From: a virus
Reading direction: 5' to 3' (one strand)
IMG/VR virus record: IMGVR_UViG_3300031974_003279
Span: 1-58,025 of that record
Length of the DNA stretch: 58,025 nt
Positions within the stretch are counted from its first letter, which is position 1. Each line of letters opens with the position of its first letter. Positions 3 to 54,995 of the stretch are shown here, piece by piece. The position numbers and the translations under genes are program-made. Below the pieces are notes generated by a model. That model was not told the DNA's origin and ran no database searches. It saw only the letters and a list, made by a program, of their open reading frames with translations.

Positions 3-1460
3 GACTACAAGAGACTGCTGCCAAATCAGTATGGTGGTTCAAGCTATGCAGATAGATCTCGTAATCAGTATGTAGTTGCAAGTAGATACTTCGACATTGA
101 AGAAAGTCTTACGACTGTTGATTACACTAGGGATGTAACATTTGGGGACTCGTTTACTACGGTACATCACTATCAAAGAAGCTATCCTGCTGTTACAGAC
201 ATTACAACTAAGTCTGGTCACAGAGACCTCTATCAGTACTACAGTGAGAGTCAGGTAGCAGAACCCTTGCGTGTCTATGCTGGTACAGTCACTCGAAAGC
301 CTACTCTAAAGTTTGAAGAGTCTGAGATATACAATGCAGCGTACGACAGAAAGCACGATGCTCGTGTATTCTTTGCAGAGCCTTTGACGGTTATTGATAC
401 TACAGATAAGTTCAATGAGGTTAAGTACTCTGATGCAAAAATTCCTGGTGAGTCTGTTGACTCTTGGCTTAATTACGGCGAAGGCAATGTAGGGTACTTG
501 GATGGTGGCCTTGGGGAAATAACAGCTATTCATACTGGGCCAAAAGATGACCTTTGGATTTGGCAGCAGCATGGTTACGGTGCATATGCAATCAACCCAT
601 CGGTAATACAGCCAGACACTGCAGGTAATGCTGTGTTTATGGGAACCGGTACAGTTCTTCAAAAGTTTGCATACGTATCAAGAATAACAGGTCTTCAACA
701 TACTCGAGCAATAGTTCAGAATCCCTACGGATTTATTTGGTATGATGCTGCAAGAAAAGCCATACAGTCCGTATCTAACGATCGTAAAGAAATTGATCTA
801 TTAGGAATCAATAGCTACATTAATAGTTTGGGTACGTTTTCAAATAACCCCGTCACAGGATCTGGTGTTGTGGCTTCTTATTGTAGTGAGACTAATGAAG
901 CAACTCTGTTTTTTAATTCTTCGACGACTACTGGTGATGGTGTAGTTTACAACTACATTAAGCAAGCCTGGTCTCATTTTGTAGATGGTCAACCAAGCAT
1001 GCATATTGACTACCATGGTCTTCCTATACTACCTAAAGCTGGAAGCAGAGAAGTCTACAGATTTGGTGATGGTGATCAAGGGTCAATGTTTGGAACGGTC
1101 TACCCATCTTCGGTAACTGTAATTATTTCAGATCCACCGGGTGTAGTTAAGTTCCTTGACAACCTTTTTTGGAACTCTGAGTGTTACAACACAGCTGGTG
1201 TAGATCAGGCTGATAAGACTGTCAATAAGATACGTATCTACAATGATCACCAAGACTCTGGGTTGATTGACCTTGGTCGTCCCGATCTCGTAAGACTGCT
1301 TAGGGAATGGCGTTATGTTGTACCAGATGCTGGTAGACTTGAGAGATTCCAGAGTCAGTATTTCTTTGTTCAGCTATATACTGACAACGCAGAGAATCTA
1401 AAGTTGATCTTACAAAGTCTAAGATACAGGTATAGGTTACACCCTATGCCGTTCATGTAA
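3..1460 (+). CDS. Tail stabilisation-like protein (P22 gp10 type), 5'-truncated by window edge
   Basis: The reading frame is open from the first bases of the window, so this is the C-terminal ~485 residues of a larger protein. A TTG inside the frame at 267 is not a convincing start. The visible part is rich in beta-strand, aromatic and Tyr/Trp-Asn repeats (for example NPYGFIWYDAARKAI and GDGVVYNYIKQAWSHF), as in propeller-like tail accessory proteins of podoviruses. In crAss-like genomes a P22 gp10-like stabilisation protein lies just upstream of the large internal virion genes, and this gene has that position. The assignment rests on composition and context, not on a catalytic motif. Another tail-hub or adaptor protein is possible. 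It ends at TAA and an 80-nt gap with a promoter-like element follows. Confidence 0.55.
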   Translation, partial: DYKRLLPNQYGGSSYADRSRNQYVVASRYFDIEESLTTVDYTRDVTFGDSFTTVHHYQRSYPAVTDITTKSGHRDLYQYYSESQVAEPLRVYAGTVTRKPTLKFEESEIYNAAYDRKHDARVFFAEPLTVIDTTDKFNEVKYSDAKIPGESVDSWLNYGEGNVGYLDGGLGEITAIHTGPKDDLWIWQQHGYGAYAINPSVIQPDTAGNAVFMGTGTVLQKFAYVSRITGLQHTRAIVQNPYGFIWYDAARKAIQSVSNDRKEIDLLGINSYINSLGTFSNNPVTGSGVVASYCSETNEATLFFNSSTTTGDGVVYNYIKQAWSHFVDGQPSMHIDYHGLPILPKAGSREVYRFGDGDQGSMFGTVYPSSVTVIISDPPGVVKFLDNLFWNSECYNTAGVDQADKTVNKIRIYNDHQDSGLIDLGRPDLVRLLREWRYVVPDAGRLERFQSQYFFVQLYTDNAENLKLILQSLRYRYRLHPMPFM

Positions 1461-4360: not shown

Positions 4361-4362
4361 CA

Positions 4363-7199: not shown

Positions 7200-10100
7200 A
7201 TGGCTAAGAAAGTTCTTGACTCTCTCAACGAATTACTGAATGAAGGAGCTGTTACTCAAACTAACAAGGTTCCTAACCGAGAAACAGATCAGCAAGATCC
7301 TGTATACTCTGGACCACTTTTAGAAGTTCCATCCACACCGGCAATCTCTCCGGTAACCATTGATGTAAAAAAAGTTTTTCAGTTTGCTCCGGATGAGTTC
7401 AAACAAGTTCCGCTTTACTCAACTGACAAATATCTTCAAGATCTAGGTGCTGCCTACCAAGGCAACTTTAAAAGAAACATGTACGCTATTCCTAGGATTG
7501 TAGGAACGGCTCTTACCGAAATGGGTCAGTTTTTAGCCGCCCCTTTAGATTGGGTAATTGGAACTGGTGGTGCTGCTTTTGGGGTTGAAAACGATCCTTA
7601 TGCAGAAAACCAAAACATGATCAGCTTTTCAAAAGCTCTTCGTGATGCTCAAGAATGGTCCAATGATCTTTTTCCAATAATTCATAGAAGTGATTTTCAC
7701 TCAAAGCCTTTCCATGAGCAGATAACATCTTCTGAGTTTGTTGGAGAAGAGGTTGCTCAAGGTATTGGATTTTTTGGAGGCATGTTGATACCAGGTGCAG
7801 CTCTTAGTAAGATGGGTAAGTTTGCTGCCTTTAGCCGTGGTATTAGAAAGGCAAACTATGCAACCATTGAGGCAGCTAAGAAGAGTCCGGTTCTTCGAAA
7901 GCTTATGGAAAAGACCCGTGGTGTTGATCGTAAGAATTGGATGCTTACTAAGGAGTCAGGGGACGCTCTTTCTTTAAACACATTTACAGCTTACCAGACT
8001 TTAATCGAAGCAAACGCAGAGGCTTCTTTTGCTAAGCAAGAGGCTTACGATAAGTTGTACGCTCTCTATAAAGATGGTGAAATCAATCCTACTACTGGAC
8101 AACCTTGGACAATGGATGAGGTTCGAGAGTCTGTAGATCAGATTGGTAAGGATATTTATTACTACAACATTGGTATTCTAGGTATTTCAAATACCATTAT
8201 GAATAATATGTTGTTTGGTGCTCACAAGCCATCTGGAGCACGCCTTGCTGCTTTGACAAGAGGTACATCTAAAGCAGACTTGTCTAAAGCCAGGCGTGTA
8301 TACAATAGATCTAAAAAGATTGCTTCTGGTGCAGGTAAGGGTATTGCTAGCGAAGGTTTCTTTGAAGAAGGTTCTCAAACTGCAGGTGAGTTAGCTGCTC
8401 AAGCTAATCTCCTTAAGGACAACGACAAAGATGTATTTGATCTTTTCACAGGTTACTTCCGTAACTATGACAAGATGCTTACAACTACCGAAGGTCAGAA
8501 AGCAATTTTGCTTGGTAGTCTTTTGGGTGCACCATCTTCAATGTACTCATCATGGAAAGAATCAAAACAAGCCGACAGTGTATACGAAGCAATTAGAGAC
8601 GCTAGAAACAATGCCGTAAATACTGTTCTTAAGCCACTCATTGGTGATCTTTATGAAAGGAACGAAGACGGTTCCTACAAGAGAGTTCTTAATAAAAAGA
8701 CTGGTAAGAACGAGCTTGTACCTAAGATATCTGGACTACTTGCAAACAGTAGAGGTTTGGCTCATTTGCAAAAGCTTTCTTCTGAGTTACAAGAACTTGC
8801 TGTAACAGATCCAGAACTCTTTACTGAAGTAGTCAAAGAAGAGGTTATACCTCAGCTTATAAAGTCATACGTAAAGTTTGATCAAACTATGGAGGTCTTG
8901 TTCGAAGACCTTTCTAGAGAGCTCAAGCTTATCCGAGAGAAATACTCTGACTTTAATTATATAGTTACGCTTGAGGACATTAAGGAGATTGCTAAGCAAA
9001 TGAGTAATGATCGCAAGGGTATTCAACCTATTGCTGATCTGTACACATTTTCTGAAACTGCAATGTCAGATCTTGAGGCCGTGGACTCCAAGGGTGAGCC
9101 GGATCTCAACACGCGTCAAAAGGTTACTATGTTTCAAGAAGAGGTCATTTTTGATGGCTACTTGAATCAAACCAATAGACTTCGTGCAGCAAAAAAGGCG
9201 TTGGCTAAAGCTGAGGAAGAGGGTGCTTCTGAAAAACAGATTGAAAGTATTAAGAAGCAGATTGAGATCATTGAGTCGAACATTGCTCTCTTTACTAACA
9301 TGTCTCGCGAAGAGTATGATAAGCTCTACCAGCAATACCGGGAGGACTCTAATAAAAGAGTTCGTTTGCAGGAGATTGAGGCAATTCAATTCCAAGAAGC
9401 TGGGGAAGAGACTGCTGCAAAGACTACGCTTACCGAAGATGCTCAGAAGTTTTGGAATCAACACCATACCTATGATGTATACGGTCGTCCTTCGCAGGAA
9501 CAAGGTCAGGACGATTCTAAACCTGCAATTCTAACTACATCTTCATTCAAGCTTGTTGATGAGAGCGGTAAGACTATTGAGACGTCTTTGGAGTTGTTAC
9601 CTCCAACCGATAATGGCACAGGTACGGACCAACCATTGGTTCTTCAGTCTCCTACCGGTCAGCAGTACGGAGTAAAGTTTGTAAATGATAAGCCGGTTAT
9701 TACACGCTTGGATACCGGCAAGCCTGTTGGTGCAAGTCTTGTTGAAGAGATTGCAGATCTAGAAAGGCAAATTTCAGAGCTGGATGAACAAATCGATAAT
9801 GCCTCAGGTGTACCATCGATTCCACAAGAGGTCATTGATATACAAAATCAAATTCGTGACTTAAGGGATCCAGATGGGAGTGTACCTGACTCTAAATTAG
9901 CAGAGTTTAAAAGGCTTCAACGACTAAAAAACTTTGTTGAGTCTGGTAGTGTTGCTTACAGGTTTTTAAGAGCACTTGATTCTCTTAAAAAAGGACTGAG
10001 CCCCAAAGAGCTTGCGTATCTTGAGGCATATTCTCGCATTTCTAAAAGCTTTGAAGAGCTTATTACTAATCTAAATGAGAGCGGTAAATTTACTACTGAG

Positions 10101-13100
10101 TTAAAACCAAATGACTTTACCGAATGGTCAGATAAGCAAGGTCTTATTTTAAATGAGCAGTTAGATATTGCTCAGCAAGAAATAGATACAGATCGTGATA
10201 TAGGATCAGAGGCTGCTTTAAAAGATGCTGGGTTTGAAGATAAGGTTTCTTACTCGGCAGATGATCTAAATGACTATGTAGAGAAGCACGGATCAAAGCA
10301 AACCAAGTTTATATGGAGTCTGATAAAAGGTGTTGTTCAAAAATTAGGTGTTACAACTCAAATAAGGTTTAGGCCTGATTATGAAGGAGGTGACAATATT
10401 GGCTTTTATTCTCCAACCACTAATAGTATTCAACTAAGGGCTGAGTTATTCAAAAATCCAGAAACTGCTGCTCTAGTAATAGTTCATGAATTGGTTCATG
10501 GTGCTACTAATCGTATTCTGGAAGCTGTAAAAAAGAATAACTCTGAAGTCTTAAGTCTTCTAACTAAGAAACAGATCAATGCAGCTAAAAAGCTATCTAA
10601 GTTAGTAAAAGAACTACAGGCTGACCCAGACACAAAAGATTGGTACGGTTCTACCAATGAAGATGAACTTCTTGCTGAGTTAGCTAATTCAGGATTTGTA
10701 GATGCTATAAAGGCTAAAAAGGTAAAACCAAGTATTCTAAAAAGGTTTATAAACTTTTTAGCAGACCTCTTTGGATTTCCTAGAGCTGACGACACTGTCT
10801 ATAGTGAAGCTTTGCAGGCTCTGGAAGACCTTATTGCTAACCCTTTGGATTTTGAAGAATTAGGTTTAAAAACTTATGGTACAGGAGTAGCGAGTCAAAT
10901 GTCCCTCCCGTTTGGAGAACCTACAGGACAAGTTAATGAAGCTAAAGTAAAAGATTTAGAATCTTATTTTTCTGAGAATACTAGATCTACACGAGATTTT
11001 AGGTATAAGCCAGATTTAGATGGAGAGGGTGAGCTTGCTCTTAGGGAGCAAAGAGAAAAACTTATTGAGTTAGGTGCAGAAAGAATATCTGCCCATGGGA
11101 TGGCTAAGGGTAATATAGGAACTCAGTTTAAAGAGTTAATCCAATTACTTACAGAAGGTATAGATTCAACAAGAGGTGGCGGTATGCTTTATACCGCTCC
11201 TTTAGTTTTGTCAGATGAAGTAAAGAAAGCCGCTGAAGCTATAGGAACAGCTAGTGGTACTGCTTATATAGATGGTGGTTTTATAGTTTTAGCTAAACCA
11301 GGCGTCGATAGACTTACAAATGCTAACCAGATTGCAGGAGTTTTAGTAAATGAGGCAGTTGCAGATACATTACCAGAGTTTGTAAGTAAGCTACAAGAAG
11401 CATTTCCTGGTTTACAAATAGACTCTTATTCTAATGCCTCAAAAGTAGTTTCAGAGATAATGGCTTCTGGGCAAGCTGTTGAAACTAGGTCATTGGTTCC
11501 TGGTAAGCAAGAGCTTATTAAAAAACGTCAGGAGTTACAGGATAGACTTACTGAACTAAAGAACTCTGCCGGTAACCAAACCGCAGATCTAAGTAACGCT
11601 AATCTTATTCTTGATCAGACTTCAGAAAAGAGAGCTCTTCAAAATCGTCAAAACATTGCGAATACAGTAGCTGAACAGATGGCTACTGCATTTAGAGAAT
11701 ACCTTGTGTCTGTAGATCCGGGTGATACCGTTGAGGATCTTGAAGATAAAGTCAACAAGTTCATCAGTGAGTTCAGAAGCATTTCTAAAGATCTTGAGGA
11801 TGGAGTGGGTGCAAATGAACTTAAGCAGTTTCTTGAAAACATACTCAGTAAAAATGATGACTATAAGCAATTGACCATAAAGGCGTTTAGTCTTAGAGAA
11901 AGAGCCAGTCAGCTTCTAGATATAGTTCTTCAAACAACTGAAGCAAGCCCCGAAGAAAAAATAGACTTTAAGCAACGCATGCAAGCCGCTGAGACTTTTT
12001 CTTTTGCTGCAGTTGAAAACTTTGTAAACAAATATCCATTCTCAGGTCAGGAAGAATTAAATGATCTTGAAAAAGTATTTAATGAGTACTCAGATGTAGT
12101 CGATAAGCTGTATGAGTTTTCTATTGATGAGCGCATGAACTCTGCATTTTCCATACTAATGAGTGCAGTTGCTGAAAATGCTCAAAGAAATGACTTTGGA
12201 GTAATCGATGTCGAAAGCCTTCAAAAGATTGTAAAAGGGGTTGTTACTAAAGAAGAACTCGATGAATTCTTTAGTGGGCTTGGGGTTGAACCGCTTAACG
12301 ATCCTAGCAATCAAGAAATCATTGACGAAGGTCAGCGTAAAAGACGAGAGTTTTCAGAAAGCGCTAAACCGTTTATTGGAGATGACCCTGCTTCTGGGGA
12401 CAGTCTTATCAGACCAGGTTTGTCTGAGGAAGAGAACGAAGGAGACTTAAACCAGTATGAACGACGTTCTGGAAGTCTGCTTGATGAAGAACAAGGTCAT
12501 TTTGATTACTTGGTGAACGTAAGAGCGTTTCATGCCTTAATGCGTACTGACTACAGTATAACCAACAACGTTCATTTTATAAGCCCTAAAGGCTTTGAAA
12601 ACGGATCGATTGCTGAAAGGTTTGGAGATGACTTTGCAAGAGTTCTTAAGAGTCAGCTTTTGTTTTTCTACGGAAGTTTTAGAAAAGTTAGTAGGTCAGG
12701 ACAGAAAGAGGGCAAACCAATTCCTTTGTTTGCAACTCTTGACTACATTGAAAATACCTTTGGGAAGGACTCTAAGGAGTACAATGCAGCAATGAATGAC
12801 TATAAAATAGTCATGGTTGGTGACAACGTAATTGTAGAAAACAAAGAAAACCCCAAGGAAAAAGGCGCATTCCTATTTAAAGATCCAAGAAGGTTTGACG
12901 GAAGCAAGCACAAAGTAATTTATGCCAGTGCTGCCAGTATAAACGATCTTACAGGTTATCCCGGGAAACCAAGTTTTCTATACAAGCAGGTTGGAGATAA
13001 GCCTGTTGAAACCCGGTATAGAGATTTTGATGAGAGTCGTGTTGACGAGTATGTTAAGGCATATGCCAACATTCGTAAAAGCGCCGACAGAAGACCTCTA

Positions 13101-16100
13101 AGAATGACCTCGTCTTCACGTACGCCAGGACCACTGCGTGAAGCAAATAAGAATGACTCTAATCGTATTTCTTACGAAACTCTGTTTGAGGATCTTAACA
13201 CAGGAACAACTGTATCTAATTTCATTCAGGGTATTAATGAGATGCTTCCACCTGAGCATCAAGGAAAGAGCTTTTCCGAACTAAGGGAGGCTGGTATCAT
13301 TACGCTTACAAACAAAAGCGGTAAGGATCCAAGAGGTGTTGCTAAAGGTAAGCTTAAGCCCGGTTTTCATTACTTGACCATTCAAGGAGTGACAACTGTT
13401 CTAATGACAAAAAAGCTTTCTCCGGAAGACATCAATAAAATAGTTGACATCATTACTTGGATTGGTAAGAACCAAAAGACCGCTGATCCTGCAACAGTTG
13501 ACAACCTTATTGATTTCATTAGAAGTACGTTCCATGTTTCAAGCTTGGATGTTACGTTCGCAACGGCAGAGCAAGGCATTGAAAGAAATGATTTTAGTAT
13601 TGCAAGACCGTTTAGAGGATCTGATTATCAAGTAGCATGGTCTAATAAGTATGATCCAACAAATCCTAACTCTTGGATACTATCGCCAGAAGTTGTAGAA
13701 GACAAAGAGTTTCTTTCAAGTTTAAGGACATTCTTGGCCGGTAAAAACTACAGCTCACTTTATGCAGACAATTCAAAGACTGTTGTTTTTTACGATGATG
13801 TCGAGATTAAAGGTGACAAAGTAACATTTGGTAAAACCCTTAATCGTACGGAGTATGTAAATAAGATGGGAGACAGGCTTGTCACCATCTTTAAAAAACC
13901 AACTGGTACAAAGTACAGTGATCGCCTCATTACATATGAGGCCAGTGCTCAGTTTACCCCTGAAGTATCTGAAGAGTTTAGGGTTCGTCAAACTGATGAT
14001 CCTTCGGTTGAGAATACATCCGACCCTTCTGATGTTGCATCTCAAGAAGAAGCATTTCCAACTAATGTTGAGTCTAATAAACTTACCGAAGAAGATCTGG
14101 ACCGTATCATAGGTGCGTTTACTCCGGATCAGCTATTGGATATTCTTGATGACATTCTGGAAAACGATGTCTCTTCAGTAGAGTTGCCTGAGGTATCCTT
14201 TGACTTTTATGACTCTATTAAAAAGACGTCCGGATACATCGATCAGTCATATTTAAAGCATTTACACGAAGCCTATTTACTTATAGATAACCCTACTACA
14301 GAAAATGTAAAGGATTCGTTAAAGCTTATTCTCAAGAGCAGGTTTGCTAAGGGCACACCAACAGATCTGAATCTAAAACCTTACTCTTATCAAGGCGGTG
14401 TTCGTACTAGGGTTCTTCCAAAAGCACCTCTACCAGTCTATGTTGATGAAGCAATGGCCTGGTTCAAAGAGCGTCATCCTGATGCTGAGGTTACAATTAC
14501 TGAGGATGGTGAAACCTTAGGAGCCCTGCTTCAAGGAGGTAATGTTGTCTTTTCCAAAACAGAACCAGACGCTTTGTACCACGAAGCCTGGCACCGTACG
14601 TCCATGTATTTCTTGAGTCCGGAGCAAAGAGCTGCCGTGTACCAAGAGGTTCGTGAAAGACTTGGAGAAACTGTGGTACCCGTAAGTAGTCCATCGGGGG
14701 TTGTGTTTGTCAAGGGTACTGAAATGACGGACAAGCAAGCTGAGGAATACTTGGCCGATGAGTTCCGTAAGTATCGCATTTTTGGAGAGTTCTACAAGTT
14801 TCCACCAAAGGCTAAAAAGCAAAAGTCTTTGTTTGAGCGCATTGTAGACTTCTTTGTGAACATGATCAACTGGTTGACTGGTCAGCCAGGATCAACTATG
14901 GAAGATCTTTTCTTCTATGCAGACAACGGTGTATTTAAAAACGCCAAGGTAAAGACTCACATTGGTGAGTTCTTTATGATCCCAGGTATGAGTAGTAGCG
15001 AGACCCTGTTGACTATTTCTGAGTTCAACAGGATGTTTATGAAATATTCTTGGTCTCGAGCTAACCTTGAGAATGAAGAGCGTAGCATTATTGCTGCAGC
15101 ACAATCTACAGGAAAGTTACCTCTATCTGATTTTTGGGATGCTTACGAAGCGGGTCAAGTTCCAAGTGAGGATTTAGCGACTATAACAACAAGAATTCAA
15201 GCATCTCTTCAAAGACTAAGAAAAGCTCCTGAAGGCAGTGATCTTGAGTTCGAACAAGCCAAGGTAAATAATAATGAACTTAACTGGTTAATTTCTAAGA
15301 TCCGAGAGGAGCATGCAAACTACTTAACTGGTATTGGTTATAAAGTAATTACGGAGAAAAATAGCGTTGACGATGTTGAAGAAAGCGATGGTTTACAGGG
15401 TCTGCAAACTAATCTTGAAGACGCATCCGATCTAAACCCTGATCAACTTACTGAAGAGTTTACCAAAGACAAGGAGGTTGCTAAAAATTCAAACAACTGG
15501 AATCGATCCAAGAACGCGATCAAGACAACACCTCCATTAGTAAAAGCATTCTTTGAAGGACTTGTTACTATTGATGAGGTTAGAAGCATGGCTCAGTTTT
15601 CTTTGGAAGGCAATGCTTCAGAAATGATGAAAGCTGTTGTTCAGAAAGTTCATGGGTTACCTATGTCTGAGGTTGGGGTAGTTCTCCAAAAAATGTCATC
15701 CCAATCAAAGGTCTATGCTGAGATTAATCGAAGGTGGCGTGATTTAACAGCAGCAGCTCAAAACTCTAAGTCTGCAAATGTTGCCCTGAATTTGGTATAC
15801 ACTTCTTTAAAGCTTACCAAACAAGAGTTTGCAACAGTGTCTCCTACAAGCTTTGTTAATCAAGTGGCAGAAGCTCAGCGCAGAGATCACTTCAACACGT
15901 TCAACTCAATGTTTTTGAATTCGGATTTAATATCCGTAGACGAGGGTCTTTACGTTCTTGTCAATACTCCAGAAACATTTCAAAGTGAAAAGGTTGGTTT
16001 TGATAGAGTAGTTGACTACTTAGATACAGCTAGTCCTTCCCAGGTACTTGACTTTACAGAAAGACTCTTTGGACCAGTGCTTAGGGAATCTCTTGATGAC

Positions 16101-19100
16101 TCAATTGACTTTGGAGAAGTCGATCCGATCATTTCCCAACTTACTGGAATGTTGTTCGACCTTTTCGAAGACGCTCCTCGTAAGTATAAACTTGAGTCAG
16201 GAAGAATCAGCTTTGCTCAACTTCGTGGTACCAGAGAGTATATTTCTTTGATAAGCACTCTTGCTCACTACAAGTATGCTTACAGAAATTTAACTGGTGA
16301 CATGAGTGTTGCCCGCTTAAAGCAATCCGGTGAGGAAACCAGACAGCATGCAATCGGTGAAAATACTCACCTAACAAACATACTGAATGACATAGAGGGT
16401 ATTCAGAACTATGTGAACCTTGAAAGCGCTTACGAAAGATTTGTTGAAATCATGGTTGACCATGGGTTCTCTAACCCTAACGCTAGGGACAGTAATGGTA
16501 GGCCTGTGATCAGTATTCTTCCAGAGTTTGCCAATCACTTTCTAATAAATGAAATTGTCTTTGTAGTCAATCAATACCTTGAAAGCGGTGGAAGGATTCC
16601 ATATATGCTTACTGAGCGTATCATTAGTGGTAACAAGGACGAATCTGTAAATCACAGTAAAGCTTTTGAAGCATTGAGTCCGTCAGAACTCATAGCAACT
16701 CACATTAAAATCTTGACCCATGGTGACTTTTTAATGACCGGGTCGGGTGGAAGAAAGCGTGAGAGTACAATTGTACTAAGAAGTGGTGCTGACAAAGCGA
16801 CTCTTGAGAACGATCCTGAGTCAAGTCAATTTACAAGAAGATTCTTTTCTGTAAGTGACTCTCCAAATAGACCTTATGTAACCATAGAAGATCATCTAAA
16901 GGCTTTATTTGTTGATGAAACAGTTCGTGTATTGGAGCAAAGATTCCTGTATGAAGCTGGTCATCAATTGCCAAACTCAACTAGACAAAACATTGAGTCT
17001 TTTGGTGATAACTACAACTACGTTCATTACCAGGACATTTATGAATTGATTACTGAAGCAGATTCAGGATTCAATAAAAGCTTGGACGAAGCAGTAAAGG
17101 ATCTTATTAAGGATCCTGCAAGTATTTCAAATATTCAAAACATATCGAAAGGCTTGGTTTCTAAGTTTGAGAAAATTATTGATCTATCGATCAATCAAGT
17201 TCTTGATACTAGAGCAAAAAGCATTTTGTCTCGTCTACCAAAAGACTCTAAGCAAAGTCCTTACAACACGGTTATAGAAGATTTGATTTTCCTAGAAGAA
17301 GATCAGAATGCTTTTGCTCCAAGTTGGGTAATACTTACTCCGTTTGAAAATGTTGTTATCGATGACAAAGGCTTTTATTCTGAAAACGAGCCTACTGTTG
17401 ATGGAAAAGTAGCAACTCTAGACACATCAAGAATTTATTCTAAAAATTCAGAGGAGTTTTCTTTATTCCAAGAGCTGGCTGTTAACAGAGGTAAGTATGT
17501 AATAAACTCAGATCTATTTGGGTTTTCGGAAGATCAAGAAGAGAGCGATAATGCGCTTGACGCAGGCTCTGATAGATTTACTACGTTCATAGACCACGTT
17601 GCTGAAAAATATGGTTGGACTCCTGAAGATCTTTCGAATATAAAGGCAACTCTTCTTATTACTGAAGAGCAAGCTGTTCAAGTAATGAGAGAGGTTGTCG
17701 GTATGTTTAAGGTTTCAACTACCGAAATGGCTGCTTTCTCAATGGGTAGCTACTCAGTATTTAAATCTGTTGCAGATGCAACCAGACGTTTTGAGGTCAA
17801 CGGTTCTAACAAGAAACAAATCAATCTCGAGAATGCAATTGCAGATCGTTTTGATGGTCGTGTTAGAAATCCTAAGTATATGAGATTGAATGTCGTTGAA
17901 GACATCATATACGACAAGAGTCCTAGCAAAGTGTCAGGACCCGAAGAGTTGATCGGTAAAGACAAAAAAGGTGCCTTTAAGAACCTTAATTCACCGGAGA
18001 CAAAGCTGGCCCTAGACCGACTTCAAGAAAGAGTTAACAACCTTCCTAAAGACGATAAGTCTAAGAGAGCTGCTCAAAAACTAATGGATACCATTAGATC
18101 CATGCAAGATGGAGGTTTTGAAGGTACTGATGCACAATCTTTAATCAGTCTTGATTTTTATAGAGAGTTCTTGACAGTAGCTGGTTTGTGGGGACCTACT
18201 GATCTTGAGAAGATTTACGTTTCTCAAATGTATCACCTAGTCAACGAGGCTATTAAAGTAAACCAACTTGTACCAGAGGATGAAAAGTTAAAGATGCCTG
18301 ATGGAACTGTGGTAGACGAAGGTATTTTTAAAACACATCCTTTGTTTGTAAAGCATGGTGAACCAATGGTGGTTGATGGAATCTTTATCCCACAGTTCAA
18401 TGGAAGGCCGGTCAATATTAACTCCAACACTGGGTTTAAATCGTTGAAGCCTCAGGGCACCGGACGCCAATTAACTGGGGATCGAATTACATTCTATCTT
18501 TTGAAAACTGCACTTACTCCGATAATGCCTAGTGAGTACAGTATTCCAGCTAACGCCACTACTCCAGATGCAGAGAATGTAAACATGATCAAGTTTTTCT
18601 GGAAGAACACTATTGAGGAGCAAGCAGATATTATTGTATTTGAGTCTTCAAACAAAAGACTGCTTCCACTTGGTATCAACTCTGTGAACATGGTCAACTT
18701 TGGAATGCAGATTTCAGAGTCCTTTGATACAAACCAAGAGGCAGCTATTTCAAAACAGTTACTTGGTGTCTCTGGGATGGATGCTTTCCAAAACCAACTG
18801 TTTACTGAGCAAGAGACCGAGTTGTTTAAGAACCTCCACGATGTATTTGATAATACTGTAGACGCTCTTACAATAAACAATGCAGTTGCATACTTTATGA
18901 AGCTGGGACTTGGTGTTGACTTTGCAAACAAGAATCTTAAAGTCGTTGATGCTGAGCGATTTAGCACAGCTATGGCTAGCATGTCAGACGTTGGTAAGAT
19001 TGATAAAGGGTCCTTGGAGCAGATCAAGAGGTTTGTTACCAGCCCTGAAGAAAATCAGCACATTGATACTTTGATTCCAGGTACACAGTATAGAAATGTG

Positions 19101-22100
19101 TTTACGTCAGCTATTGAAAAGCATGTGATCACTTTGAGAGATCGTTCTGCAAAACAGATCGTACAAGAAGCTGACATCAGCCAAAGCCTTAAGTTCTGGA
19201 GAATTGAGAACGGTGAACTTAAACCACCTCAAATAAAACTACCTGTTCCTAAGTCATTACACGCTTGGATCATTGACACGTTTGGTAACAGTGACTTGGC
19301 TAATGCAGACCAAGAAGCCAAAAATCTGAATTTCTACATTGCTTTTTCAAAGTTCAGGGAGGCGTATAGAAACAACGACCCTAGGATACCTAAGCAAATC
19401 AGACAGAGTCTGATCAATCGTACTCCTATGGACAACCGTCACTCTGCTACACCTGTAGAGATAGTTGACTACTTGCTTCCTTGGGAAGGTCACAAGATAA
19501 CTGTGCCCATGGAGCTCGTGTTTATTTATGGTTTTGACTTTGACTACGATAAGTTGACATCTTACTATCAAACTCCGGTTTATGATAGAAAAAATAAGTC
19601 GTTGACTTTTGTTAAAGAGTTAGAGTCTGAGCAAGATCTCAAGGAAAGGATTTTAGAGGAGGCCAAAAAAGGTCGTTTCAAATTAGCCAATCAACTCTTG
19701 TTCAACTTACAGAGTATTAATGAGATTACTGCAGGGCAATTAAAGCATGCGATTAAGGTCTTTAAAAGAGCTCGTTCAAAAAGCCTTTCTGCTCAAAGTA
19801 AAAAACAACAACGTGCACTTAAGAAGGACGAACAGGATTTGGGTAAACGTATTTATGCTATAGATCAAAACATCGAAAAGTACACTAGAGCTCTTGATCA
19901 GGTAGCAAGCAAAGGTGGTGCTGAGCAGGCTATACAGAGGTATCAAAAAATGATCAATAAGCTTGAAGAACAAAAACTTCAAGCTGAGTTGGACTTAATA
20001 TCTGTTGCTTATGAGTTTGATGATATAAGTCAAATTAATCAACTAAGATCTGAGATTAGCTCAGCAGTTGATTTATACTTCAGCAATCAGCAGAATAACC
20101 CTTACCGCTTAGACATCTTTCAGGAAAAAACTACACTTACAAATAAGTTGTATGACAACCTGTATAAGATGATGATGGTTGAGCCAGCTGCAATGCTTTC
20201 GATGATTCCTACCGGAACATCTACTGTTGAAGAATTAGCTGAGCAATATCTAATTGAGTCAGAGTCAATGCCATCTGACAAGTGGTCAGATCTATTTGAT
20301 ATAGAAAAGAATGCTGTAAAGCGTTCCACAATCCTTGCCTCGGATCGCAGTATTGGAACTTTTGCATACGCCACTCCGATGTTTTCGAGACTTCAAAAAT
20401 CACCTGTTCGCTTTGATTCTAAGTACTCACTGCCTTTTGAAGGTATGGACGGTACAGTCATTATTGGAGGTATGTATGATACTGAGGGAGATATTGCTTC
20501 CCTGATGGGTTCAGAGTTTTTGAACACAGCGTTAGATTCATCTAAAAATCCAAAGCCTTTCTTTGCAGGTCTTGATGATTTTGCAGCATCGGTTATTTAT
20601 TCAATGCTGATGCTAGGTACTGAGAACCTTAACGGTACCATGAGAGGAAACATTAGCCCTAGTTTAATTATGGCTATGTTGAATCAACCTGCGGTAAAAA
20701 AGTTTCTAAAACTTTACAGAAGTAACGTTCAGAACAAAACCAAATACGCTTCTAAAAGAGAAGCCAGGAATGCTGCTTTCCATCAGGCACTGGCTCTACG
20801 AGGAGTTAGTTTACATGTTCATCACAATCCAGCTATGGGTGAAGCTGTATTACCAGTGGACCCTGCGCAGGAAAATCCAGTAGATGTGTTGGGATGGTCT
20901 GATGCTTTTTCAGGAGCTAGTGAGGAAGCAAGATTGACTCTTGCCGAAGAAGAATTCAATCTTCGCAGTCAGAGAATGTATGACACCTCAGACGAAACTG
21001 CTGACGTTGTACCATTCTTATTTCAGCTTGTACAAACCTCACTTTATCCTAGAGATATAGTTAAAGGAAGAACTCCTTGGGCTAGTCGACAAAGAGCTGT
21101 TAGACAAAATCAGGACTCTTACCTAAAAGCTATGCAAAGCATTACGAAGGTTTCTTCAAAAATGCTAAGAGCACCTAAGGATGAATCAGTTTCAACTACG
21201 TTTAATCAGCGAACTGACGAAGTAGCAATACTTGATGCATTTGTTACAATGATGGTTTATTCTGATAAGATGACTGACTTTATGCTTGCGTTTAGAAAAG
21301 ACTCAAGTCTTGCAAAAACTGTTCATCAGTTAACGCAGCATGAAGAAACTCGTAGAAAATTAATGGATCCTAAGAAGGGTGGGTTATTTCAAACTCAAGA
21401 TGTAGTAAACTTTTATAGGTCTAACTATCTAAAGTCCTTCATTTTAGTCAATGAGTTGACAAACTCCTTCTTGAAGACTAGAAGTTTGTTTTATGATCCT
21501 GAAATTTTTGACAGAGAAGATCACGAGTACTTCTTCAATATGTTTGGGTACCAAGTTACTTACGATGCAGTAGCAGAATACTTTCCGAGCTACTTGGTTC
21601 AGAAGTTCATTCCAGAAACAGACGATCTTGCAAGAACACTTTTGTTTCAAAAGCCGCAGTTCCAAGACAGTCTCTTAGGATTGTATAGAGAGTTTACAAG
21701 ACAGTTAAAGGAAGAGTACAAACGAGCCGGTGGTCAAAAACGATATGAAGATGACATAGTTATCAAAAACATTAAGGTCGTTCCTAATGCTAGAGACTAT
21801 GTGTTCAAGCAGACTCGAGATATTCAGTCACTCATTTTGACAAATCGAAGGATTCAAGGTAAAGACCTAGAGTTACTTCAAGAAAGAATTGCTCAGCTTA
21901 CTGATCCAAACGCTACTCTGAATCCAGATCTTGTTGCAGCAGCCAAAGAATTTTTTGATGCAGCATCGATTGCATCACTGTATCAAAATGCAAATAATCG
22001 ATTTAGTCAAGTTGGAAAGGCTTTGGTAAACTATCCTTTCTATAATGACATGCTTGAAAAAGCAGTTGCTCGTTTTAAGGAAGTTTCTAAAGGGCGACAG

Positions 22101-23387
22101 TTCAATAAGGCTATGTTCTTAAGAGAGTTTGCTCAGAGTGTAATCGTTGCAAATGCGACAGATCCAGATTATGTACCAGCTAAGGTTTCTTACAATAGTC
22201 TTCCTGCCTATGTTAAAAAGTCAATTCTTCCTGTTAGACGTAGTGAGGATGATGAGTTGATACAGAACAAACTAACTATTTCATTCGACAATCCCAACCA
22301 AGAACCAGGTAACTTAAGGTACATTAGAACTGGAGGAAACTACTTTGGTGACAACTATGTGGCTATAACCGTTCCTTTCTTGACACTAAGAGACTCTCTC
22401 AAGTCATTTAAGTCTAATAGAAGAGAGACAATGGGTGAGACTCAATTCATAAAACCAGATCCAGAAAGGGCCAATATTACCTTGATCTATAAGCGAGAAA
22501 AGCAATCCGGGGATGGTAACGGTTACAACTGGACTTATGTTGGAGGGCAACCCGTAGGTACTTTTTATGCGGTTAGACCAAACAACTTCATGAACCGTAG
22601 ATCTCAAGCTATTTCTGAAGAGTCTAGAAATACTAAAAGGGTTAGAGAGACTCTGGAAAAAATTGACGCAGGTGTTAAAAGAAAACGAGTTCTTCCTGGA
22701 GGTTACGACCCGAACTCAGGACAAGTTACTGATTTTGCAATGTTCAGTGATCGCTCAAAGCTTATTGCCGGTCTTAAAGCTTCTTTGACTCTTACGGTAG
22801 GTCAAAAGCCAGCCGAAAAGATTCTTAAGGACTTGACAGAAAGCGATATTGTCAGAGGTCTTAGTAAGATATTTGAGATAGCTAAGGATGATCTCTTAAT
22901 GCCAGAGTTTCCCCAGGATCCTAACCATCCTTTCAGAAAGATCCTTATGAAGATCGATGACATGCCAGCAAGTACTCCGACGTTCGATCTTTGGAGCCCT
23001 TATCGGAATGCCTTTGTACCTCACGCGGGTACAGCTGCTGCCAAGGCTGTTGAGATCTTCAATGCTACGGTTTCTCAAACAGGTAAGGGTACTATTATAG
23101 ATCCGGTTACAGGTAAAAAAGAAGACATACCTGTTCCAGTCTTTGAGAGAAATGAAGAAAAGCGTCTTATAAATCAAGATGAGCTCGCAGTCAATAAGAA
23201 TGCTTTAGTGGGTAAGTCCCAGGAAGATAAAGCCTTGTTCTCAGAGCAGGAATCTGCAGCAGTGGTGGATGCTTTTTATAACTTTGAAAAGTACTTCCCA
23301 GGAGTTTCATTCCCTAATAAGCGTTTGAGATTGGCATTCCTAAGAATGGTAGACAACGGAACGATTGAAATTAAATGTAGGATATAA
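7200..23387 (+). CDS. Giant virion protein with RNA-polymerase DPBB domain and two zincin-like domains
   Basis: 5395 aa, one uninterrupted frame. Near the C-terminal quarter, NRTP (4073-4076) is followed 37 residues later by DFDYD (Asp4113, 4115, 4117). That is the order and spacing of the beta'-type double-psi beta-barrel of RNA polymerases (NRxP ... DFDGD), with the three metal-binding Asp of crAss-like and QDE-1-type single-chain enzymes. Two HExxH sites are present: HELVH (1096-1100), followed by an acidic DELLAEL helix, and HEAWH (2461-2465), followed by EEYLADEF near 2515, as in gluzincin-like metallopeptidases. Coiled-coil-like Glu/Lys-rich stretches lie near 660-760 and 870-930. By analogy with phage phi14:2 gp66, the polymerase part would be packaged, ejected and used for early transcription. 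The zincins might process the precursor (inference). The stop overlaps the next start (TAATG). Confidence 0.85.
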   Translation: MAKKVLDSLNELLNEGAVTQTNKVPNRETDQQDPVYSGPLLEVPSTPAISPVTIDVKKVFQFAPDEFKQVPLYSTDKYLQDLGAAYQGNFKRNMYAIPRIVGTALTEMGQFLAAPLDWVIGTGGAAFGVENDPYAENQNMISFSKALRDAQEWSNDLFPIIHRSDFHSKPFHEQITSSEFVGEEVAQGIGFFGGMLIPGAALSKMGKFAAFSRGIRKANYATIEAAKKSPVLRKLMEKTRGVDRKNWMLTKESGDALSLNTFTAYQTLIEANAEASFAKQEAYDKLYALYKDGEINPTTGQPWTMDEVRESVDQIGKDIYYYNIGILGISNTIMNNMLFGAHKPSGARLAALTRGTSKADLSKARRVYNRSKKIASGAGKGIASEGFFEEGSQTAGELAAQANLLKDNDKDVFDLFTGYFRNYDKMLTTTEGQKAILLGSLLGAPSSMYSSWKESKQADSVYEAIRDARNNAVNTVLKPLIGDLYERNEDGSYKRVLNKKTGKNELVPKISGLLANSRGLAHLQKLSSELQELAVTDPELFTEVVKEEVIPQLIKSYVKFDQTMEVLFEDLSRELKLIREKYSDFNYIVTLEDIKEIAKQMSNDRKGIQPIADLYTFSETAMSDLEAVDSKGEPDLNTRQKVTMFQEEVIFDGYLNQTNRLRAAKKALAKAEEEGASEKQIESIKKQIEIIESNIALFTNMSREEYDKLYQQYREDSNKRVRLQEIEAIQFQEAGEETAAKTTLTEDAQKFWNQHHTYDVYGRPSQEQGQDDSKPAILTTSSFKLVDESGKTIETSLELLPPTDNGTGTDQPLVLQSPTGQQYGVKFVNDKPVITRLDTGKPVGASLVEEIADLERQISELDEQIDNASGVPSIPQEVIDIQNQIRDLRDPDGSVPDSKLAEFKRLQRLKNFVESGSVAYRFLRALDSLKKGLSPKELAYLEAYSRISKSFEELITNLNESGKFTTELKPNDFTEWSDKQGLILNEQLDIAQQEIDTDRDIGSEAALKDAGFEDKVSYSADDLNDYVEKHGSKQTKFIWSLIKGVVQKLGVTTQIRFRPDYEGGDNIGFYSPTTNSIQLRAELFKNPETAALVIVHELVHGATNRILEAVKKNNSEVLSLLTKKQINAAKKLSKLVKELQADPDTKDWYGSTNEDELLAELANSGFVDAIKAKKVKPSILKRFINFLADLFGFPRADDTVYSEALQALEDLIANPLDFEELGLKTYGTGVASQMSLPFGEPTGQVNEAKVKDLESYFSENTRSTRDFRYKPDLDGEGELALREQREKLIELGAERISAHGMAKGNIGTQFKELIQLLTEGIDSTRGGGMLYTAPLVLSDEVKKAAEAIGTASGTAYIDGGFIVLAKPGVDRLTNANQIAGVLVNEAVADTLPEFVSKLQEAFPGLQIDSYSNASKVVSEIMASGQAVETRSLVPGKQELIKKRQELQDRLTELKNSAGNQTADLSNANLILDQTSEKRALQNRQNIANTVAEQMATAFREYLVSVDPGDTVEDLEDKVNKFISEFRSISKDLEDGVGANELKQFLENILSKNDDYKQLTIKAFSLRERASQLLDIVLQTTEASPEEKIDFKQRMQAAETFSFAAVENFVNKYPFSGQEELNDLEKVFNEYSDVVDKLYEFSIDERMNSAFSILMSAVAENAQRNDFGVIDVESLQKIVKGVVTKEELDEFFSGLGVEPLNDPSNQEIIDEGQRKRREFSESAKPFIGDDPASGDSLIRPGLSEEENEGDLNQYERRSGSLLDEEQGHFDYLVNVRAFHALMRTDYSITNNVHFISPKGFENGSIAERFGDDFARVLKSQLLFFYGSFRKVSRSGQKEGKPIPLFATLDYIENTFGKDSKEYNAAMNDYKIVMVGDNVIVENKENPKEKGAFLFKDPRRFDGSKHKVIYASAASINDLTGYPGKPSFLYKQVGDKPVETRYRDFDESRVDEYVKAYANIRKSADRRPLRMTSSSRTPGPLREANKNDSNRISYETLFEDLNTGTTVSNFIQGINEMLPPEHQGKSFSELREAGIITLTNKSGKDPRGVAKGKLKPGFHYLTIQGVTTVLMTKKLSPEDINKIVDIITWIGKNQKTADPATVDNLIDFIRSTFHVSSLDVTFATAEQGIERNDFSIARPFRGSDYQVAWSNKYDPTNPNSWILSPEVVEDKEFLSSLRTFLAGKNYSSLYADNSKTVVFYDDVEIKGDKVTFGKTLNRTEYVNKMGDRLVTIFKKPTGTKYSDRLITYEASAQFTPEVSEEFRVRQTDDPSVENTSDPSDVASQEEAFPTNVESNKLTEEDLDRIIGAFTPDQLLDILDDILENDVSSVELPEVSFDFYDSIKKTSGYIDQSYLKHLHEAYLLIDNPTTENVKDSLKLILKSRFAKGTPTDLNLKPYSYQGGVRTRVLPKAPLPVYVDEAMAWFKERHPDAEVTITEDGETLGALLQGGNVVFSKTEPDALYHEAWHRTSMYFLSPEQRAAVYQEVRERLGETVVPVSSPSGVVFVKGTEMTDKQAEEYLADEFRKYRIFGEFYKFPPKAKKQKSLFERIVDFFVNMINWLTGQPGSTMEDLFFYADNGVFKNAKVKTHIGEFFMIPGMSSSETLLTISEFNRMFMKYSWSRANLENEERSIIAAAQSTGKLPLSDFWDAYEAGQVPSEDLATITTRIQASLQRLRKAPEGSDLEFEQAKVNNNELNWLISKIREEHANYLTGIGYKVITEKNSVDDVEESDGLQGLQTNLEDASDLNPDQLTEEFTKDKEVAKNSNNWNRSKNAIKTTPPLVKAFFEGLVTIDEVRSMAQFSLEGNASEMMKAVVQKVHGLPMSEVGVVLQKMSSQSKVYAEINRRWRDLTAAAQNSKSANVALNLVYTSLKLTKQEFATVSPTSFVNQVAEAQRRDHFNTFNSMFLNSDLISVDEGLYVLVNTPETFQSEKVGFDRVVDYLDTASPSQVLDFTERLFGPVLRESLDDSIDFGEVDPIISQLTGMLFDLFEDAPRKYKLESGRISFAQLRGTREYISLISTLAHYKYAYRNLTGDMSVARLKQSGEETRQHAIGENTHLTNILNDIEGIQNYVNLESAYERFVEIMVDHGFSNPNARDSNGRPVISILPEFANHFLINEIVFVVNQYLESGGRIPYMLTERIISGNKDESVNHSKAFEALSPSELIATHIKILTHGDFLMTGSGGRKRESTIVLRSGADKATLENDPESSQFTRRFFSVSDSPNRPYVTIEDHLKALFVDETVRVLEQRFLYEAGHQLPNSTRQNIESFGDNYNYVHYQDIYELITEADSGFNKSLDEAVKDLIKDPASISNIQNISKGLVSKFEKIIDLSINQVLDTRAKSILSRLPKDSKQSPYNTVIEDLIFLEEDQNAFAPSWVILTPFENVVIDDKGFYSENEPTVDGKVATLDTSRIYSKNSEEFSLFQELAVNRGKYVINSDLFGFSEDQEESDNALDAGSDRFTTFIDHVAEKYGWTPEDLSNIKATLLITEEQAVQVMREVVGMFKVSTTEMAAFSMGSYSVFKSVADATRRFEVNGSNKKQINLENAIADRFDGRVRNPKYMRLNVVEDIIYDKSPSKVSGPEELIGKDKKGAFKNLNSPETKLALDRLQERVNNLPKDDKSKRAAQKLMDTIRSMQDGGFEGTDAQSLISLDFYREFLTVAGLWGPTDLEKIYVSQMYHLVNEAIKVNQLVPEDEKLKMPDGTVVDEGIFKTHPLFVKHGEPMVVDGIFIPQFNGRPVNINSNTGFKSLKPQGTGRQLTGDRITFYLLKTALTPIMPSEYSIPANATTPDAENVNMIKFFWKNTIEEQADIIVFESSNKRLLPLGINSVNMVNFGMQISESFDTNQEAAISKQLLGVSGMDAFQNQLFTEQETELFKNLHDVFDNTVDALTINNAVAYFMKLGLGVDFANKNLKVVDAERFSTAMASMSDVGKIDKGSLEQIKRFVTSPEENQHIDTLIPGTQYRNVFTSAIEKHVITLRDRSAKQIVQEADISQSLKFWRIENGELKPPQIKLPVPKSLHAWIIDTFGNSDLANADQEAKNLNFYIAFSKFREAYRNNDPRIPKQIRQSLINRTPMDNRHSATPVEIVDYLLPWEGHKITVPMELVFIYGFDFDYDKLTSYYQTPVYDRKNKSLTFVKELESEQDLKERILEEAKKGRFKLANQLLFNLQSINEITAGQLKHAIKVFKRARSKSLSAQSKKQQRALKKDEQDLGKRIYAIDQNIEKYTRALDQVASKGGAEQAIQRYQKMINKLEEQKLQAELDLISVAYEFDDISQINQLRSEISSAVDLYFSNQQNNPYRLDIFQEKTTLTNKLYDNLYKMMMVEPAAMLSMIPTGTSTVEELAEQYLIESESMPSDKWSDLFDIEKNAVKRSTILASDRSIGTFAYATPMFSRLQKSPVRFDSKYSLPFEGMDGTVIIGGMYDTEGDIASLMGSEFLNTALDSSKNPKPFFAGLDDFAASVIYSMLMLGTENLNGTMRGNISPSLIMAMLNQPAVKKFLKLYRSNVQNKTKYASKREARNAAFHQALALRGVSLHVHHNPAMGEAVLPVDPAQENPVDVLGWSDAFSGASEEARLTLAEEEFNLRSQRMYDTSDETADVVPFLFQLVQTSLYPRDIVKGRTPWASRQRAVRQNQDSYLKAMQSITKVSSKMLRAPKDESVSTTFNQRTDEVAILDAFVTMMVYSDKMTDFMLAFRKDSSLAKTVHQLTQHEETRRKLMDPKKGGLFQTQDVVNFYRSNYLKSFILVNELTNSFLKTRSLFYDPEIFDREDHEYFFNMFGYQVTYDAVAEYFPSYLVQKFIPETDDLARTLLFQKPQFQDSLLGLYREFTRQLKEEYKRAGGQKRYEDDIVIKNIKVVPNARDYVFKQTRDIQSLILTNRRIQGKDLELLQERIAQLTDPNATLNPDLVAAAKEFFDAASIASLYQNANNRFSQVGKALVNYPFYNDMLEKAVARFKEVSKGRQFNKAMFLREFAQSVIVANATDPDYVPAKVSYNSLPAYVKKSILPVRRSEDDELIQNKLTISFDNPNQEPGNLRYIRTGGNYFGDNYVAITVPFLTLRDSLKSFKSNRRETMGETQFIKPDPERANITLIYKREKQSGDGNGYNWTYVGGQPVGTFYAVRPNNFMNRRSQAISEESRNTKRVRETLEKIDAGVKRKRVLPGGYDPNSGQVTDFAMFSDRSKLIAGLKASLTLTVGQKPAEKILKDLTESDIVRGLSKIFEIAKDDLLMPEFPQDPNHPFRKILMKIDDMPASTPTFDLWSPYRNAFVPHAGTAAAKAVEIFNATVSQTGKGTIIDPVTGKKEDIPVPVFERNEEKRLINQDELAVNKNALVGKSQEDKALFSEQESAAVVDAFYNFEKYFPGVSFPNKRLRLAFLRMVDNGTIEIKCRI

Positions 23388-26300
23388 TGAAGTGTAGTAT
23401 TCCAGAACTCAGTCAAGACGAACAAGATCAGCTGAGGAAAAACGCACAGAACCATCAGCACTTTTTTGGTCATCCAGATACGATGATAAAAAATACGCCT
23501 CTTGAAAAGGCGGCTGCGTTCATTCACTACATTAATGATATACCAGAGGTAGTATCGCGTCGTAAAGAAAAGAATGGGTTTGTAACTTATGTTAACAGAC
23601 TTGGCGTTGAGTTGGTGTCTGCATCTAAAAGTAACCGTAGACGTAGTGTTTTTGACAAAGGCACGGGTACAACAGCTTCTTCCTTAGAAGCGTCCCGGAA
23701 TATGCTTACCGGAGGTGCCTTTGATGACGTCCTCATGAGAGATGCATGGGGTTGGTTGATGAGACGTCTTTCTGATTTTACTGAGGTTTCTCAAAGAGGT
23801 GACTATAAGATCAACGAAAGACTTGATCCGGAAGGCAAGCCTTACTCTGGTGGCACCTATCAACTTGCCATGATACCTTCAGAGGTTTTACGTTTTTTGT
23901 TTACTGAGGAATCAGGTGCAGATTTTAATCTTAGAATCAACATATTCGGATTACCTGAGCTAGCAGAAGATGATGCTGTAGGTGATCCTAAAACAGGAAC
24001 ACTTTTATACTACTTGCTACAGCAAAGCAGGAATGGTCGTTACAAAAACATGAAGTACGACTTTGAAGCCGCTGGAGAAACGGCAACTGCTTCTTTGACC
24101 TTTGATGAAAAAGTATTTAGAGAGATTGCCGAGTATGTTCACATGACTTTTTATAGTACCCTGCGAACATTTTCTAAAACTGAGGCACCGTATAAGTCTC
24201 AGTCAAAGAGTGATCCAAAAGATCGAATTTTTTCTGACCTTATTATTGGTACTCAGGTCTTTACATTCTCACCTCAAAGAAATACTGGTGGTTTTGCAGA
24301 CTTGCTTTTTATGTATGGAGATAAGAAGCATACCATCATTACAGATTTTAAGACCAAGAGTATTCTTCTCAATGATAGAAAAGGCTCTGGCAGTCCTGTA
24401 AATAAATCAAACCAAACCAGATACAACCGACAAGTTCAAATGTATCTGGATGGTATTCGCTATGTTGGGGGTAATCCTTTGGTTGGTCAACTTGCACCGG
24501 CAACCATGCTTCTTACCAGAAGTAATATTGAAGCTAACGGTGAGTCTACCTTTATAGTAGGTGGTTTGATTCACGCTCAATCTGGAGAAAACGAACTATC
24601 GAAACGATACGGTATATCTGTCTCTCCATTTAGCTCTGCTTTAATTCCTCAGCTTGAGGAGCAAATGACAATTCTTTCTGACTTTATTGAACAGACTCAG
24701 TTAAGAACCAGTGAGACTCGAGCAACTCTTAAGTCAGCAACAATATCAGATGACCCTGAAGTAAGAAAAGATATTTGGGACAGAGTGCGTAGTAATGCAT
24801 TGCTTTTATCTAGCATTCGTGGACAAACTTCAGAGATCCACGAGCATGCATTTAAGCAGATGACTTTGCATTTTAACATTTCGTCTTACATGTCAGCGGC
24901 TTTGAATTTAGATGCCCAGATAGAACCTTTTCAGAATGACCTGGAGGAGTATATCGATACAACTCTTGTTGATCTTAGAAGAACCGTAAATCCCAAACAG
25001 TACTTAGAATCAATGCTTGATGAGTTTTTGATTTATCAAGACATGATGAAAGAGTATGACTTGGAGATCAATGCCCTTAAGGCTGTATTTAACTCTCAAG
25101 TCCAGAGTTATTATGTAGACGGCCTTATAAAAATGTTCAGCTATTTAGAAGGTACGTCAGGTTTAAAAATGCGTGACACTTTTGAGCAGATCTTAAAACA
25201 GATACCTTCAGAATATTATCCGAATCAACAGAAAGATGCATTCATCGACACATATTTTGACTTTATTGATGATAATGATATTCAAGGACTTATAGGCTTT
25301 ATAGATAACAAGTTCAGACCAATGTTTGAAGAGTACTATACGAGTATTTCTTCAAGGCTAGACGCCATTTCTACTCGCAACAGCGAACTTAATTCTGAGT
25401 TGGTCATTGCTTTAGTACCACCAACATCTGTTGAAAAGCAGACAGGTACTGCTAAAAAGAAACTTGTTGTAGAGTCACTTGGATTTTGGGATCGTTGGGC
25501 CACAAGATCAGAACTAATCGACAATCCTTTGTTCAAGATCTTCAATAAAGTAAAAGACTTCGCAGAGCAAAAAACTTTGAGGCAGTATGAAGAACGAATG
25601 AAGTCTTATCAAAAAACACACGATGACTTCTTGACTTATGTCAATAACTCAAAAATGAGTTATAAGGAGGCAGTGGGCTTACTGGTTGATACAGAAATTG
25701 GTATGCTTCACAAGCGTTTTGTTGATGATTTCTACGCTCGTAAAGAAGACGCTTTGCAAAATCAAGATGCTGCTTGGATGCGGGGGTATTACGAAATACG
25801 GGATAAAGCTGCTTGGCTCGAAGAGTACGAAGCCAAAAGAGATAATTACTTTCAATGGCTTGACTCTCAGGCAAAACTCTATGAAGACGAGTTAGCCGCC
25901 AACCCTGAATACTACCCTGACGTTGGAATTGATCCTAAGTTCGTTGAGCAAAGAAAAGACGAGTTTCTACAAGCTTACAACCTTAATGCTAAAGAGGGTA
26001 ATGCTTGGGTCAATCGCCGGAACTTAAAATATCTGGAGCCCAAGAAGGTTGTACACGAAAGGTTTGCCAGCGAAAAGTATGAAAAGATACGCTCTACGGA
26101 AGCTTTGTTCAATATGTATGAACAACTACGCAGTTTACCTTTAGAAGCAAAGTCTATCATAGGTCAAGGAAAAATGTATATTCCTGAAGACTTTTTTCCA
26201 AACATTGCAGCAACTACTGGTGAGTTGGCACTAAAAATACCTCAGACAGGTATACTTAGCACAGCTGGAAAAATGGTTGCTAATGAGTTTAGAATTGCAC

Positions 26301-38994: not shown

Positions 38995-39464
38995 TCTAAG
39001 ACAATTAAGGATTTGATTTGGCCTTTGAAAGTCATTGGTACGACTTGCATAGTGCATGCATCATCGACGCTATCAGAAGCACTGATCAATACCTCTGACA
39101 TTATTTGATGACTGATTGCTCGCGTCTTATAGATACGAGATCGAAAGTCACTTTTGATCATAGCATCAGTTGCATTGTAGATAAGCAGTGCTTTACTAAA
39201 TGATCGACGAGCTTCGATCAGACTTTCGTCTTCATCATTTACGTATTTGTTTGTTAGTGTACCAGTAAATGAATTTGACAGCAGTGTTGGTATCAACTGC
39301 AGACTGAAAGAAATGAAGGCTTTGTCTTCTTTACCAAGCTCCAGAAAGTCATATGCTTTCTGACTCAATTTGATTTTATCACCGTTTACTGACAGTGAAT
39401 AATCGCCGGCATCATTCTCGGGCTTGGTTGCCGAGGTCTTGCCGACTCCGTAGGATAACTCCAT
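38991..39464 (-). CDS. Hypothetical protein with MELSYG N-terminus, 157 aa
   Basis: Not recognised. It begins inside the 3' end of the primase gene (53-nt overlap) and ends in the rIIA start (ATGA). After MELSYGVGKTS comes KIKLSQKAYDFLELGKEDK, which resembles the RIELNKKCQELLGLK segment of the 186-aa protein at 41273-41833, also starting MELNFG. The C-terminal half is helical with many Ser/Ala. It may be a small DNA-replication accessory protein. Confidence 0.7.
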   Translation of the reverse strand: MELSYGVGKTSATKPENDAGDYSLSVNGDKIKLSQKAYDFLELGKEDKAFISFSLQLIPTLLSNSFTGTLTNKYVNDEDESLIEARRSFSKALLIYNATDAMIKSDFRSRIYKTRAISHQIMSEVLISASDSVDDACTMQVVPMTFKGQIKSLIVLE

Positions 39465-54945: not shown

Positions 54946-54964
54946 GTTGAATAGGTTTTGATTC

Positions 54965-54991
54965 AAAAAATAACCCCACCGAAGTGGGGCA
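54965..54991 (-). terminator. Intrinsic terminator after the 73-aa gene
   Basis: Stem CCCCAC / GTGGGG with CGAA loop (+ strand), then six T on the - strand; just past the stop and 20 nt before the MYG1-like start. Confidence 0.8.
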
Positions 54992-54995
54992 TACA

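Follow-up and report, generated by a model that had tools for sequence, protein, structure and literature searches.

The RNA polymerases of crAss-like phages reach lengths of up to ~6000 aa and have been called a hallmark in a review of these phages (PMC10136315). In phage phi14:2, the genes following the muzzle gene run g070, g069, g068, gp67 (1797 aa), gp66 (2180 aa) and gp65 (1421 aa), where gp66 is the polymerase of known structure (6VR4), and gp67 and gp66 are separate genes that overlap by one base. In virions of crAss001, polymerase and cargo proteins have been detected by mass spectrometry and are thought to exit partly unfolded through constrictions under 50 Å (PMC10172136). Fusions of crAss-like polymerases to large proteins were noted by the authors describing gp96 of Thermus phage P23-45, a 5002-aa protein in which a tail tape measure and a two-barrel vRNAP are united (PMC10770324). 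Zincin-like peptidases fused to N4-like virion polymerases have been proposed to process such chains, although N4 packages its own polymerase uncleaved, peptidase domain included (PMC5512222). A beads-on-a-string model, with small domains as the beads, has been put forward for N4 (PMC12633501).

Here we analysed 58,025 bases from a metagenomic virus record (IMG/VR), hereafter the window, which encode a giant protein, P0001, with a calculated mass of 608 kDa. An earlier note had reported a protein of 5395 residues with NRTP at position 4073 and DFDYD at 4113-4117, and we found all three in a frame of 5395 codons with no internal stop (Table 1). On the plus strand, the genes are ordered as the C-terminal part of a muzzle protein, cargo protein 1, P0003, P0001 and P0002, with the ATG of P0002 overlapping the P0001 stop by one base. 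The muzzle fragment matches phi14:2 gp71 (E 2e-37), and P0003, by its position, corresponds to gp68. The next three phi14:2 proteins, gp67, gp66 and gp65, are all homologous to parts of P0001 or P0002, in the same order. P0001 sits in a Crassvirales virion-gene block, adjoining muzzle and cargo genes and gp67 and gp65 homologues as expected for a Crassvirales virion RNA polymerase. Elsewhere in the window, on the minus strand, we observed matches to the spore photoproduct lyase family (28415-29248, Pfam E 5.8e-17) and the MYG1_exonuc family (54058-54996, E 7.9e-9), as well as an 885-aa protein with a gyrase B/HSP90-like GHKL ATPase domain (36400-39057, HATPase_c_3, E 7.8e-9).

Table 1. Features of P0001 and the neighbouring virion genes, in window coordinates
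Feature	Position	Strand	Residues and motifs	Evidence
Crassvirus muzzle protein, C-terminal part, cut by window start	3..1460	+		Pfam crAss_MUZ 1.7e-31
Crassvirus cargo protein 1 with lytic transglycosylase domain	1541..4360	+		Pfam crAss_CARG1 8.7e-14, SLT 1.4e-10
P0003, directly upstream of P0001	4363..7188	+	941 aa	gene order
P0001 giant protein, gp67-like half fused to gp66-like virion RNA polymerase	7200..23387	+	5395 aa	
gp67-like N-terminal domain	7494..9464	+	conserved EGFFEEGSQ at 385-393	BLAST 99-495; profile 173-755
First zincin-like domain	10347..10796	+	1050-1199; HELVH 1096-1100 and downstream ELLAEL	gp65 profile E 8e-7
Second, junction zincin-like domain	14442..15041	+	2415-2614; HEAWH 2461-2465 and EEYLADEF 2515-2522	profile
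gp66-like polymerase part	15072..23384	+	about 2625 to end	profiles; inferred border
Polymerase core	17631..20744	+	3478-4515	window-free core profile E 1.7e-24
TFYLLKT	18489..18509	+	invariant K3769	invariant alignment column
NRTP, invariant R-x-P	19416..19427	+	starts at 4073; R4074 and P4076	
DFDYDK catalytic metal-binding loop	19536..19553	+	4113-4118	motif, profile, alignment, 6VR4 match
P0002 gp65-like protein	23387..28330	+	1647 aa	gp65 profile E 5e-21, residues 532-1632

We then asked how firmly the two motifs identify a polymerase. Because a shuffled copy of P0001 would contain D[FYW]DxD 0.18 times on average, the motif alone is weak proof. Scans of pieces of P0001 against Pfam and PHROGs gave no significant match, which, like the motif frequency, would be compatible with NRTP and DFDYD being a chance match within an unrelated tail or cargo protein. 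Single-sequence searches with the C-terminal part also yielded no real match, either by tblastn against phages (using the C-terminal 1995 aa) or by phmmer against the PDB, and a related-locus search seeded with this part found none. Relatives were therefore sought via the gp67-like N-terminus. An alignment of the P0001 N-terminus with phi14:2 gp67 led to 15 IMG/VR loci, one of which is phi14:2 itself; 13 of these relatives, each with a DFDxD protein and phi14:2 included, make up our core set.

A core profile built from these 13 relatives, with the window left out, matches P0001 over residues 3478-4515 (E 1.7e-24, calculated for a nominal 100,000 sequences) and does not match reversed or shuffled P0001 controls. 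In P0001 and all 13 relatives (14/14), R-x-P lies exactly 39 residues ahead of DFDxDK, a distance that runs from R4074 to D4113 in P0001. R4074, P4076, the three aspartates, K4118 and the upstream lysines K3769 and K3819 are invariant in the alignment, with K3769 a candidate for the beta-side barrel lysine. This homology of the core and the exact spacing of its motifs are the decisive evidence that P0001 contains a crAss-like RNA polymerase, whose catalytic loop spans 4113-4118. Furthermore, a wider polymerase profile matches residues 2415-2740 and 3509-4775 (E 8e-53 overall). Our first PDB search with a polymerase alignment was not independent, since that alignment contains phi14:2, and it was repeated with a profile of the window and five fused relatives from which phi14:2 and its near relatives were left out. 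The only significant PDB match of this profile is 6VR4 (E 3.5e-53). The polymerase of P0001 has nevertheless diverged very far (tree branch 4.2); it escaped detection by a profile of split gp66-type proteins, and its gp66-like N-terminal stretch, about 2740-3480, is poorly matched.

We predicted the structure of residues 3400-4560 with AlphaFold from an alignment that contained phi14:2, and obtained a model of only modest confidence, with a mean pLDDT of 54. In the PDB this model matches 6VR4 best (E 9e-13), followed by multisubunit RNA polymerases, and its best matches in a viral library are crAss-like polymerases. The alignment to 6VR4 extends over 1045 columns. The structural match anticipated around residues 4050-4130 is thus predicted by a model that finds 6VR4 first, and the C-terminal half of P0001 would be a gp66-like polymerase with two double-psi beta-barrels in one chain and its metal-binding loop at DFDYD. 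A chance occurrence of the motifs is refuted by the core profile and contradicted by motif spacing, fold and gene order, leaving it a negligible probability.

The length of P0001 finds its main explanation in the other half of the chain. Residues 99-495 match phi14:2 gp67 (E 3e-28), and a gp67 family profile matches residues 173-755 (E 4e-42). At the opposite end, residues 5320-5393 match the C-terminal 74 residues of the fused relative L025. Judged by sequence homology, P0001 is a gp67-like part (residue 1 to about 2625) joined to a gp66-like part of about 2770 aa, as compared to 2180 aa for the polymerase of phi14:2, where the two parts are separate genes rather than one chain. We infer the border near residue 2625 from the end of the gp67-like ORF in a relative, L013. 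Long stretches in both halves are unmatched and would represent insertions or divergence past detection. By comparing P0001 with gp66 only, the earlier note had counted ~3000 N-terminal residues as extra; this overstated the excess, which is mostly a fused gp67 homologue plus insertions.

Among the IMG/VR loci, gp67-like and polymerase parts also lie in one frame in L006 (3883 aa), L003 (3987 aa), L017 (4082 aa) and L016 (4304 aa). Like P0001, these proteins combine a gp67-like N-terminus, the junction region and the polymerase; unlike P0001, all are shorter and their gp67 half lacks the gp65-type zincin-like domain described below. Two separate genes are found in L004, L005, L007-L010, L012 and L014. 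We rejected L013 as a further true split. Its gp67-like ORF occupies another frame than its polymerase ORF (15679-15922), but no stop interrupts the polymerase frame for a good distance upstream of the first ATG, indicating a frame change, whether error or real, in a fused gene.

Annotated Suoliviridae carry single polymerase ORFs of 4272-6386 aa, including those of cr55_1 (KNV27_gp070, 4551 aa), cr53_1 (4645 aa), cr50_1 (4774 aa), cr118_1 (KNV30_gp14, 4946 aa) and cr272_1 (KNV61_gp23, 6386 aa, with DFDID at 4401), the last of which is open with TAG read as glutamine. Like P0001, these giant ORFs contain a HEAxH domain and then a gp66-like polymerase with R-x-P and DFDxD, and they have cargo and muzzle genes upstream and a large gene following. 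Their N-terminal part is beyond the reach of the gp67 profile, so any homology of that half to gp67 is putative. The cr272_1 ORF (NC_055903.1 53236-72396) is annotated only as "hypothetical protein", and the annotations of its relatives read DNA helicase, exonuclease V, DprA-like or nuclear pore-like protein.

These relatives bear on whether the two halves of P0001 form one frame merely because a stop codon was lost through an error of assembly or sequencing. The window is a metagenomic virus record, and the frame change at the L013 junction shows how such a frame can get split; independent relatives and annotated Suoliviridae nonetheless carry fusions of this kind in a single frame, and we consider an artefactual join very improbable. 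Nor is P0001 the largest such polymerase, a place ruled out by the 6386-aa ORF of cr272_1. The earlier suggestion that it may be one of the largest also gives way to the upper length of ~6000 aa cited above, and its size is unexceptional for the crAss-like group. Both gp67-gp66-type fusion and giant size are already present in known crAss-like phages, of which P0001 is a divergent example. A tree of the polymerases places the window alongside L003, L013 and L017 and apart from both the Suoliviridae clade and that of phi14:2, though its very long branch makes this placement unsure.

Two HExxH motifs, at residues 1096 and 2461, mark what look like zinc-peptidase domains. In both, the motif and a downstream glutamate (HELVH/ELLAEL and HEAWH/EEYLADEF) are conserved in alignments with relatives. 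By contrast, phi14:2 gp67 contains no HExxH. The first domain matches cr55_1 gp071, a large gene in the gp65 position (E 1.5e-8), and a gp67-like protein of a bajarodcaudo virus (E 9e-12). This HELVH-type domain belongs to gp65 in most relatives, and in cr55_1 it is accordingly in the gene following the polymerase, whereas in the window it sits within the gp67 half of the giant protein. Because it is present in P0001 and absent from P0002, the gp65 homologue, which has no HExxH domain, the gp65-type domain has changed its host protein in the lineage of the window. The same change has occurred in the bajarodcaudo virus. P0002 has a PD-(D/E)XK-like motif (GFADLLF..IITDFKT) at residue 302, and similar motifs are found in cr55_1 gp071, after its zincin-like domain, and in the bajarodcaudo gp67-like protein. 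These distributions suggest that nuclease and zincin-like domains move among gp65- and gp67-type proteins. We found no paper tying crAss-like polymerases to zincins, in a literature search of partial coverage that is not proof of novelty.

The second domain is part of a region matched by profile over residues 2415-2740 (E 1e-21), and HEAxH lies shortly before the polymerase, both in the window and in L003, L006, L017, cr55_1, cr50_1, cr118_1 and cr272_1. This recurrent position, together with the role proposed for zincin-like peptidases in N4-like virion polymerases (PMC5512222), raises the question of whether P0001 is a self-processing polyprotein, in which the embedded zincin would cut between the gp67-like and polymerase parts so that gp67- and gp66-like proteins would be separate in the mature virion or infected cell, as they are in phi14:2. 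Several lines of evidence argue against such processing. First, L016 is fused and yet its junction motif is degenerate, reading HEAFE (fused protein residues about 1997-2177). Second, neither the HExxH-free gp67 of phi14:2 nor the unprocessed N4 polymerase fits this scheme. Finally, a model of the junction domain has a pLDDT of 45, and a fold search with it gave no significant match and did not confirm a zincin fold. We therefore regard self-processing as unlikely, if worth entertaining. Still more doubtful is an extended version, in which P0001 would be packed as one chain to fix the exit order and then cut to free the polymerase, the gp65-type peptidase having moved in for a job done from a separate protein in relatives.

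Similar combinations of parts are seen in more distant systems. P23-45 gp96 combines a two-barrel virion polymerase with a large virion protein bearing a metallopeptidase domain (PMC10770324), an architecture comparable to that predicted for P0001; its polymerase, however, is N-terminal within the tape measure (DFDGD at 779), and it comes from a different phage group. The virion RNA polymerase of N4 (about 3,500 aa) offers, with the polyvalent MPTase proteins, a further parallel, namely a giant ejected polymerase that has a zincin-like domain (PMC5512222, PMC12633501), as is predicted for P0001, although the N4 enzyme is T7-like rather than two-barrel.

Homology, the order and collinearity of the genes, the conservation of catalytic residues and the recurrence of the fusion in relatives lead us to conclude that P0001 very probably serves a divergent crAss-like phage as its catalytic virion RNA polymerase, synthesized in a single chain with a virion protein that is separate and directly upstream in phi14:2. 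By analogy with the proteomics annotation of phi14:2 and mass spectrometry of crAss001, P0001 would be packaged in the particle and ejected. The 608-kDa chain may be packed in the head near the portal, alongside cargo protein 1 and the gp65-like protein, and threaded through the tail partly unfolded, before refolding inside the cell and transcribing early genes. Being one chain, the gp67-like and polymerase parts would be assured of equal copy number and of their order of delivery.

Together, these findings partly explain the length variation of crAss-like polymerases, through fusion of gp67-like and gp66-like parts and through domains that appear to move among the gp65, gp66 and gp67 positions. 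Such movement and fusion make the gp65, gp66 and gp67 proteins look like parts of one ejected machine. Furthermore, the naturally fused and split relatives allow the ejection and cleavage of giant virion polymerases to be compared.
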